Shown: one piece after another, positions 8,140 to 10,007 of the stretch
Numbering within the stretch: position 1 is the first letter of the stretch
Layout: each line of letters starts with the position of its first letter
Origin: Thermoplasmata archaeon
GTDB lineage: Archaea > Thermoplasmatota > Thermoplasmata > Thermoplasmatales > Thermoplasmataceae
DNA length: 10,872 nt
NCBI GenBank assembly: GCA_021816385.1
Contig: JAKAYJ010000029.1
Location: 1 to 10,872, forward strand
Direction of reading: 5' to 3'
The notes under the pieces: model-generated
Databases searched by the model: none
The model's input: only the letters and a program-made list of their open reading frames with translations
Told to the model about the DNA's origin: nothing
Translations under genes and position numbers: made by a program

Positions 8140-8160
8140 TTTTACAATAATCTGAGCAAG

Positions 8161-8184
8161 AAAGCTCCGACCTTCAGGGAGGAG
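8161..8184 (+). repeat. Left-end hairpin and guide of the IS element
   Basis: AAAG (8161-8164) is followed by an imperfect hairpin: CTCC (8165-8168) pairs with GGAG (8181-8184), CC (8171-8172) pairs with GG (8177-8178), the loop is TTCA, and a GA/GA internal mismatch separates the two short stems. It resembles the right-end hairpin in its CTCC/GGAG base, as expected if one TnpA recognises both ends. Confidence 0.75.
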
Positions 8185-8228
8185 ATGAATTGTGAAAGTT
8201 TATTGGTATTTGTGTGACTGTGTAAGTA

Positions 8229-9398
8229 ATGATTAAAATCCTCAAGGTGCGTTTATACCCAAATGTAGAACAGACGGTTCTTCTGGAAAAGCACTTTGGG
8301 TCATGCCGCTTTGTATGGAATCATTTTCTCGAAGTGAGAAACAAGTACTTTGCTGAGCATAAGAACGACAAAAAGAGGGGATTATCAGGTTTCGATACCA
8401 TGAAGATGTTAACGACATTGAAGAAGGGGTTAACATGGTTGAACGAAATCAATTCTCAGAGCCTTCAACACTCCCTTGTAAAGCTGGACATGGCATTCAA
8501 GTCGTTTTTCAAGCATAATGCCAGTTATCCGAAATTCAGATCAAAAAAGGATAACCAGTATTTCATAATACCATCAGGATTCAAAACAGACGGAAACAAG
8601 CTGATTATCAAAAAATTCATGGAAGGCATAGAGTACAGAGACGAATCTACATTTCCAGCCGATATAAAGCAGGTTATTGTAACTAAAGATGTTGAACGCT
8701 ACTATGCATTTATCCAGCATGAAACTGATGAGAAGTTATCTAAAGGAGATGCCATCATCGGCATAGACATGGGAATCAAGGCATTCCTAACCACATCGGA
8801 TAAATTGCAGGTTGAACCGCTTAATGCATTGAGGAAAAGTGAAAAGAAGTTAAAAAGAGAACAGCGGAGGTTATCAAGGAAAAGAAAAGGATCGAAAAAC
8901 AGGAAGAAGCAGATAGTGAAAGTGCAGAAGATAAATCAGAAAATCAGGGATGCAAGAACGGATTTCAACCACAAGGTATCAACAGCGATAGCCAAGCATT
9001 ACGGTACTGTTGTAATTGAGGATTTAAACATACAGGGAATGCAAAGAAACCAACATCTTGCAAGAAGCATAGCAGATCAGGGATTGTATCTGTTCAAGAC
9101 CATGCTAACGTATAAACTCGAATGGGGGGAAGCGGTCCTCATTGAGATTGGAAGATTCGATCCTTCATCAAAGATGTGCTCAAAATGCGGAAACATCAAG
9201 CATGATTTGAAACTGTCGGATCGCATATATCACTGCAATGTGTGTGGTCTTTCTATGGACAGGGATCTGAATGCTGCAATAAACATAAGGAATATGGGAT
9301 TAATAAAAATAGGACAGGACATGTCCAAATTCACGCCTGTGGAAAGTGCTACAGCAGCGGAACTCTCAAAAGGAGGTCTACGAGTTGCCACTCTATGA
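8229..9398 (+). CDS. tnpB: RNA-guided nuclease TnpB of an IS200/IS605 element
   Basis: TnpB proteins are RuvC-type nucleases guided by an RNA made from the element's right end; they cut the empty donor site and so favour retention of the element. The protein is 389 residues and looks full length. An N-terminal domain begins MIKILKVRLYPN and contains WNHFLEVRN (30-38). RuvC residues are visible: D180 in GIDMGIKAF, E264 in VVIEDLNIQGM and D346 in DRDLNAAINIRN. A zinc ribbon has C317, C320, C336 and C339. A basic stretch (about 202-233) precedes RuvC-II. All key residues are present, so it is probably active. The ATG at 8229 has a weak GTTTATT box about 28 bases upstream. The last codons and the right end overlap the presumed guide RNA. 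Confidence 0.95.
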   Translation: MIKILKVRLYPNVEQTVLLEKHFGSCRFVWNHFLEVRNKYFAEHKNDKKRGLSGFDTMKMLTTLKKGLTWLNEINSQSLQHSLVKLDMAFKSFFKHNASYPKFRSKKDNQYFIIPSGFKTDGNKLIIKKFMEGIEYRDESTFPADIKQVIVTKDVERYYAFIQHETDEKLSKGDAIIGIDMGIKAFLTTSDKLQVEPLNALRKSEKKLKREQRRLSRKRKGSKNRKKQIVKVQKINQKIRDARTDFNHKVSTAIAKHYGTVVIEDLNIQGMQRNQHLARSIADQGLYLFKTMLTYKLEWGEAVLIEIGRFDPSSKMCSKCGNIKHDLKLSDRIYHCNVCGLSMDRDLNAAINIRNMGLIKIGQDMSKFTPVESATAAELSKGGLRVATL

Positions 9399-9457
9399 AT
9401 CAGGAACCTCCGATGCTTTAGCATGGAGAGGATGTCAGGAAACTTTTTTTATAAGTC
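9340..9457 (+). ncRNA. Predicted reRNA (omega RNA) and guide of TnpB
   Basis: In this family the guide RNA covers the end of tnpB and the right end, and the guide is the flanking DNA just after the element. Structure visible here: GG-AACTC (9359-9365) can pair with GAGTT-CC (9382-9389, one G bulged); the end hairpin 9408-9428 has an 8-bp stem with one bulged G and the loop TTTA; and GGAGGT (9372-9377) is the exact reverse complement of ACCTCC (9406-9411), a candidate pseudoknot competing with that hairpin. The scaffold would end at 9438 and the guide would begin GAAACTTTTTTTATAAGTC. The 5' boundary is a guess. The T7 run at 9444-9450 could end transcription inside the guide. Confidence 0.45.
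9404..9438 (+). repeat. Right-end hairpin, guide and cleavage site of the IS element
   Basis: GAAC (9404-9407) is followed by the stem CTCC-(G)-ATGC pairing with GCAT-GGAG (9408-9428, loop TTTA), then ten bases ending in TCAG. The ending GAGGATGTCAG is of the kind commonly seen at right ends of archaeal IS605-type elements. The final TCA is also the reverse complement of the acetyltransferase stop codon TGA. Confidence 0.8.
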
Positions 9458-10007
9458 TTGCTGGATTTCCTCCCACTAATACATCTGGAGGGACATTTCT
9501 CGTAACCACAGAACCAGAAGCAATTACGGATCTGTTTCCAATACTGATTCCCGGATTTATTATGGCACCACCTCCAATCCATACGTCATCACCTATGGTC
9601 ACTGGTTTTCCCAGCTCCAGTCCACTTATTCTTTTTTGACTTTCCAGTGGGTGAGATGCCGTATATATATGGACAGAAGGTCCGAGAAGAGCATTTCTTC
9701 CTATGGTCACCCTGCAGACATCCAGTATAACACAGTTATAATTTGCATAAAACTCATCTCCAATCTCAATATTGTAGCCATAGTCACAGTAAAAAATAGG
9801 TTCAATATAGGGATTTTTTCCTACCTTTCCAAAAAAGGCTTCAAGGATTTGAATTCTTCTGGAAGCATTACCTACTGGAATTATGTTGAATTCATTCAGT
9901 ATGGTTCTTGCCCTCATTCTTTCTTCAATAAGCTGGGCATCGCTCGAACGGTATAATTCCCCGGAGATCATTTTTTCCTTTTCGCTCAATGGGTTCCTAT
10001 GCTTCAT
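9435..10007 (-). CDS. Sugar O-acetyltransferase, LacA/Maa type
   Basis: Acetyl-CoA-dependent transferase of the left-handed beta-helix family (maltose, galactoside or NodL acetyltransferases). The protein is 190 residues, normal for the family. An N-terminal helical cap, MISGELYRSSDAQLIEER (13-30), is the maltose acetyltransferase signature. Hexapeptide repeats follow, with IFYCDYGYNIEIGDEFYANYN (its key part 71-91), the catalytic histidine H119 in YTASHP, VTIGDDVWIGGGAII (136-150), and the ending VPPDVLVGGNPARLIKKV. The ATG at 10007 has a TTTATAAT box 25 bases upstream. The stop codon TGA is supplied by the last bases of the IS element: before insertion the gene ended TCG TAA, now TCC TGA, Ser-stop in both cases. 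The acceptor sugar is unknown; the real substrate may be an envelope glycan. Confidence 0.93.
   Translation of the reverse strand: MKHRNPLSEKEKMISGELYRSSDAQLIEERMRARTILNEFNIIPVGNASRRIQILEAFFGKVGKNPYIEPIFYCDYGYNIEIGDEFYANYNCVILDVCRVTIGRNALLGPSVHIYTASHPLESQKRISGLELGKPVTIGDDVWIGGGAIINPGISIGNRSVIASGSVVTRNVPPDVLVGGNPARLIKKVS

Follow-up and report, generated by a model that had tools for sequence, protein, structure and literature searches.

The window, by which we mean the whole 10,872-nucleotide stretch of Thermoplasmata DNA that was analyzed, holds genes for ribosomal protein L15e, phosphoglycerate kinase, prefoldin, an SRP54-type GTPase, proline dehydrogenase, a NUDIX protein and a large membrane protein, together with an acetyltransferase gene and a 1293-bp element of the IS200/IS605 type on the forward strand (8146-9438). 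The sole gene of this element is tnpB (8229-9398, +), and the features expected of an IS200/IS605 element of the IS1341 type are present, namely an intact TnpB, subterminal hairpins, the absence of a target duplication (the flanks read TTAC and GAAAC) and the absence of an internal tnpA, just 83 nt of the element lying upstream of tnpB. Consistent with this, no Y1 domain was found in the 11 window proteins scanned (17 ORFs are listed).

The known code of IS608 consists of the cleavage sites TTAC (CL) and TCAA (CR) and the guides AAAG (GL) and GAAT (GR), with A+16:T-3 and A+17:T-4 paired and the triplet bases A+42 and T+43 immediately downstream of the hairpin (PMC5934647). At the left end of the element, TTAC (8142-8145, +) is the left cleavage site and the target kept in the flank, and is also the predicted TAM of TnpB by analogy with published systems (PMC8612924, PMC10640517). 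The left guide tetranucleotide AAAG (8161-8164, +) occupies +16 to +19 of the element, in the same register as in IS608, and directly precedes the left subterminal hairpin CTCCGACCTTCAGGGAGGAG (8165-8184, +), which reads CTCC-GA-CC, TTCA and GG-GA-GGAG. The hairpin is followed directly by AT (8185-8186, +), placed like A+42 and T+43 of IS608 (PMC5934647) and possibly of like function. At the right end, the guide tetranucleotide GAAC (9404-9407, +) is followed by the right subterminal hairpin CTCCGATGCTTTAGCATGGAG (9408-9428, +), the linker AGGATG (9429-9434, +) and TCAG (9435-9438, +), the right cleavage site, which closes the element, its final G being the tenth base past the hairpin. The earlier note had described a tnpB-only element with IS608-like ends, in which the left code TTAC/AAAG is identical to that of IS608 and the right code has changed from TCAA/GAAT to TCAG/GAAC through compensating changes of the fourth bases, and every letter and distance that it named was found in the sequence.

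The right hairpin is supported by compensatory changes, since six of its eight pairs are changed on both sides among 13 copies, in which 93.3% of cells are paired, as against at most 60.2% for all slid versions. Single-strand DNA folds of the two ends were no better than those of shuffled sequences (z -1.36 and -0.60).

Boundaries of the element and its tnpB

Alignment of the right ends of 15 close relatives, some of them fragments, revealed an identity of 1.00 over TCAG, which drops to 0.53 one base outside and to 0.21-0.37 beyond; the fragments L027 and L038, left out of these 15, likewise end in TCAG. At 10 left ends of relatives the identity outside TTAC is 0.18-0.49, the identity over TTAC itself being circular because these ends were picked by the TTAC pattern. 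Fourteen Thermoplasmata left sides were also compared, 11 of which are of the AAAG type. By our own reading, 10 of these 11 (L214 included) begin after TTAC and the exception, L002, has TTATG instead, while the other three left sides (L007, L023 and L044) are of another kind; the fragments L027, L033, L038 and L063, which have left ends of different types, were omitted from the 14. Among these other types, L007, L032 and L045 have a hairpin followed by ATACACGG, and L023, L044 and L063 have a GCAAG hairpin followed by TTAG. Homology among the copies, which sit in unrelated flanks, stops at TTAC and TCAG and was not found to run past 8145 or 9438, indicating that both ends are exact to the base, as the earlier note had held.

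A syntenic locus in genome G381 (L217) provides the unoccupied state. There the membrane-protein gene (54%) adjoins the acetyltransferase gene (68%) without the element, and the gap between them retains ATTATAAAGATTTTAC, as compared with ATTATAAATTTTAC in the window, at 36 and 34 nt, respectively, from the membrane-protein start; TTTTAC is thus retained at the unoccupied locus. Together with the relatives, this locus supports the reading as a tnpB-only element. The acetyltransferase gene of the window (9435-10007, minus strand) now ends in TCC TGA, a stop codon formed by the TCA of the element, and ends in TCG TAA when the window flanks are joined as an empty site. Both TTAN and TCAN contain stop-codon complements, so that insertions in stop codons are nearly silent. 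An insertion preference for stop codons was considered and rejected, there being no enrichment in the 61 insertions examined: beside the right end, minus-strand frames open for at least 60 codons number 6, 7 and 5 by frame (6 being the frame that stops in the site), and those open for at least 100 codons number 5, 4 and 2.

TnpB is a protein of 389 aa with HTH, OrfB and TNB domains (Pfam). Three acidic RuvC positions are present, two of which we take to be such in the TnpB alignment, and so are both CxxC pairs of the zinc ribbon. The match to ISDra2 TnpB (PDB 8bf8) has an E value of 3.2e-48, and the remaining acidic position, D191, is named for that protein (PMC8612924). The nearest TnpB relatives were found in Thermoplasmata MAGs, at 70-79% in eight of 12 loci. 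The 3' end of tnpB and the right end (9315-9438, +, with an approximate 5' limit) form a predicted omegaRNA scaffold, a role assigned from the TnpB literature. Over these 3' 124 nt the mean column identity is 85% among 13 copies and continues beyond the stop codon into non-coding DNA; the RNA fold of the conserved region is weak (z -1.65). The adjoining flank (9439-9458, +, at an assumed guide length) would serve as the omegaRNA guide and, together with TTAC, matches the re-joined donor site, as in the mechanism proposed for ISDra2, in which TnpB recuts the re-joined donor site at TTGAT (PMC8612924).

The element could also be read as an immobile relic, or its TnpB as a protein that the host has retained for some other purpose, with the ends surviving as fossils. 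Such a reading agrees with the absence of tnpA from the element and of a second TnpB copy among the listed ORFs of the window. We nevertheless regard it as unlikely, since the reading frame is intact, the three RuvC acidic positions are present, the ends are intact to the base and related copies occur in unrelated flanks. Very probably, the element is a non-autonomous IS200/IS605 element of the IS1341 type that is moved in trans by a Y1 transposase.

Guide and site letters among relatives

To the right of tnpB, a scan of 217 sequences by letters gave 143 GAA...TCA matches at 6-nt spacing, compared with 39-73 for five control letter pairs, so the background of this letter scan is high. When the linker was required to begin with AG, 66 ends were left, and 61 of them have complementary fourth bases (C:G 26, G:C 35); among the five misses, L003 (GAAA/TCAG) seems genuine, whereas the other four resemble chance hairpins. 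A second scan, in which the guide and site letters were unused, was anchored on a hairpin plus AG[GT]ATG alone and recovered 118 hairpins. GAAN and TCAN are both present at 60 of these 118, and 59 of the 60 are complementary at the fourth base, as against 29.6 on average and at most 45 in 10,000 shuffles. Nine more right ends were read with the register shifted by one or two bases; eight have GAAG/TCAC and L204 has GAAG/TCAA, giving a total of 67 of 69. Fourth-base complementarity at the right ends thus exceeds chance, with L003, L204, L012 (GAAC/TCAA) and the fragment L038 (GAAT/TCAG) as exceptions to the pairing rule. Over all 118 hairpins the position pairs 1-2, 2-1 and 4-4 are prominent, as in IS608, in which guide base 4 pairs with site base 4; pair 3-1 scores too because those letters are nearly invariant. 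The compensating fourth-base change that had been proposed for this element is therefore borne out by covariation among its relatives.

On the left, 55 AAAN hairpins followed by ATGA were found, with TTAN 11-18 nt upstream in 38, and the fourth bases are complementary in 34 of these 38 (G:C 22, A:T 6, T:A 6). The four misses are L002, L062, L183 and one chance-like hairpin. Many of the 17 other AAAN hairpins are chance-like; in L065, L105 and L128 TTAC lies at a distance of 19 nt, and the left hairpin of L141 is real but lacks TTAN in place. Two loci of genome G204, L183 and L190, have near-identical left ends with the guides AAAT and AAAG, respectively, both after TTAC.

Close TnpB relatives were also observed to differ in their left hairpins, which are of the CCACTGAG type or a CTCCGACC-like type. 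The contrast is seen between L002, L004, L005, L008 and L214 on one side and the window, L003, L006, L009 and L043 on the other, and extends to L132, L100, L105 and L128. With the exception of L002, TTAC/AAAG is unchanged across these differing hairpins, and CCACTGAG-type left hairpins occur at tnpA loci too. Left ends seem to have been exchanged between elements.

The bases that covary on the right fall inside the predicted RNA scaffold, directly ahead of the guide, where the omegaRNA of ISDra2 has a pseudoknot (PMC10097598). The GAAC/TCAG covariation might accordingly be kept by omegaRNA structure, through pairing at the right end, and not by TnpA reading DNA. In the published description, however, the ISDra2 pseudoknot joins -6 to -2 with -102 to -106, and -1, which corresponds to the fourth base, is not among the positions named for it (PMC10097598). 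Moreover, the left code covaries likewise although its site lies outside both the element and the RNA, and we consider maintenance by omegaRNA structure very improbable as compared with recognition of the DNA by TnpA.

To extend the survey, a wider set of 67 loci (plasmids, Thermoproteota) was read by letters alone, which gave complementary fourth bases at 10 of 21 right hits and 13 of 32 left hits, most of them resembling chance hairpins; in this set the letters by themselves were uninformative. Ends judged real by their hairpins, after the letters had been seen, carry GAAC/TCAG (L242, L249, L256, L261 and L270), TTAA/AAAT (L271, from an H. pylori plasmid, and L285) or TTAT/AAAA (L253 and L279). 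L272 (H. pylori) has AAAT without TTAN in place, and L281 has AAAA with TTAA at a hairpin resembling those of right ends. Across archaeal relatives the fourth-base rule is widely obeyed, with real exceptions. In 39 elements of six bacteria the cleavage sites were reported to be divergent and generally conserved within clades (PMC9956272). None of the titles returned by our literature searches dealt with natural guide/site covariation in Thermoplasmata; such covariation may already be reported elsewhere.

The number of independent code switches was estimated on a quick TnpB tree of 53 rows, from which three ends without a long frame and then six rows had been omitted. This tree needs three right-code changes. 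With two more rows omitted, both on long branches, it needs four guide-base and three site-base changes on the right, and four and five changes, respectively, on the left (26 labelled rows, with the labels of L072 and L150 misread). The independent-pairs test is without power on this tree. With so few independent switches, only a handful of events underlie the covariation, which agrees with the mechanism but alone is no proof of selection. Shared ancestry, in which each of a few clades received a single guide-site pair by descent and pairing was not selected for, would agree with the small number of changes (3-4 on the right and 4-5 on the left, two left labels being misread) and with the lack of power of the test. 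We judge it a highly unlikely explanation, since complementarity prevails almost throughout in the three left and two right pairs, mixtures being few, and since the pairing is known from the crystal structures and retargeting of IS608 (PMC5934647, PMC8266576).

Among the decoded ends the right site reads TCAN and the left site TTAN with few exceptions, which raises the question of why the fourth base alone changes. One answer, which we put forward with considerable doubt, is that in tnpB-bearing IS200/IS605 elements the DNA code may evolve freely at the fourth base alone while TnpB holds the first three, the left TTA as part of a motif read by TnpB and the right TCA as part of a pseudoknot of the guide RNA. 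In the RNA of ISDra2, -6 to -2 form a pseudoknot and a once-predicted pairing with -30 to -32 does not occur (PMC10097598); by our own reckoning, -30 to -32 would correspond to the guide. If this answer is true, the compensating change would be a trace of DNA-DNA recognition by the transposase and RNA/protein recognition by the nuclease sharing the same letters.

tnpA-bearing elements and a possible route of movement

The Y1 transposase could be supplied by related elements, and a TnpA of the kind that the earlier note had predicted for the host was located in the related genomes G148, G005 and G006. PF01797 is present in seven of the 10 genomes reached through relatives, and no match was found in the other three (G002, G003 and G007; MAGs). 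In a sample of 250 genomes of the class, PF01797 was detected in 69 at E 0.001, 67 of them over the cut-off, and 16 of 80 tnpA loci are without a tnpB hit. Sister tnpA-tnpB elements of 1.54-1.57 kb with the same code were identified at L071 (G005) and L072 (G006), both with TTAC/AAAG and GAAC/TCAG, and at L102, L089, L094, L096, L101, L104, L137 and L140. The last seven, of about 1.57 kb, combine CTCC-type hairpins with the four-part code of the window; at L138 the right end alone was matched by pattern.

Genome G148 holds both the tnpA-tnpB element L104, whose tnpA is an open frame of 141 aa with E 2.6e-40 to PF01797, and a window-like copy, L043 (76%). The four-part code is common to both, and the 20-nt left hairpin is letter-identical in the window, L043 and L104. 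L043 is the nearest row to the window on the 53-row TnpB tree, in which L001 (79% identical) is not included. The co-occurrence of L104 and L043 in one genome, with identical left hairpins, is the best evidence for mobilization in trans. The tnpA elements of G005 and G006 match the resident window-like copy in the four-part code but not in the left hairpin.

The route would then be as follows. A Y1 (HUH) TnpA supplied in trans would bind both subterminal hairpins on single-stranded DNA and would cut after TTAC on the left, where AAAG may pair with the site (A:T, A:T, G:C), and after TCAG on the right, where GAAC may pair with the site (G:C, A:T, C:G). The excised strand would be circularized and reinserted after another TTAC. 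TnpB, with an RNA derived from the 3' end of its gene together with the right end, may cut the re-joined donor site (TTAC plus the right flank), and this cutting would favor retention of the element. Guide-chosen cutting and joining by TnpA is known for IS608 and is presumed here by analogy. Sites of IS200/IS605 elements are chosen by guide complementarity, and changing the guide changes the sites of IS608 (PMC8266576).

The element is a small, ordinary archaeal mobile element of a known kind, and the guide/site rule was already known, having been derived from crystal structures and engineered IS608 variants (PMC5934647, PMC8266576). What is added is an element defined to the base, a natural test of the code, in which three left and two right pairs of natural archaeal elements fit the rule, and a named candidate TnpA family. 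The code can be used to call the exact ends, the targets and the likely TnpB motifs of tnpB-only elements, and points to the TnpA that could move them.

Comparison with known systems

The element resembles IS608 in the left code TTAC/AAAG, the guide at +16 to +19, the guides directly 5' of the hairpins, the AT after the left hairpin, and the pairing of guide 1 with site 2, guide 2 with site 1 and guide 4 with site 4. It differs in carrying TCAG/GAAC at the right where IS608 has TCAA/GAAT, in lacking tnpA, and in having left and right hairpins unlike each other. Furthermore, the base directly following the element, which in the target is the one that follows TTAC, is A in 11 of 15 copies, whereas in IS608 C is preferred and purines are disfavored at this position (PMC5934647).

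With the IS1341 type, which has been named as a tnpB group (PMC9956272), it shares a single tnpB, the lack of tnpA and ends of the IS605 type. The left target is TTAC here, in contrast to the left motif TTTAT of the archaeal solo tnpB copies of Sulfolobus islandicus, which is taken as the likely TnpB motif (PMC10640517). TnpB of the element has the domain order and catalytic positions of ISDra2 TnpB (8bf8), the target of ISDra2 being the five-base TTGAT (PMC8612924). The Thermoplasmata tnpA-tnpB elements (L104, L094, L089, L096, L101, L137 and L140) carry tnpA and a distantly related TnpB, unlike the element in the window, with which they have in common the four-part code and closely similar hairpins.
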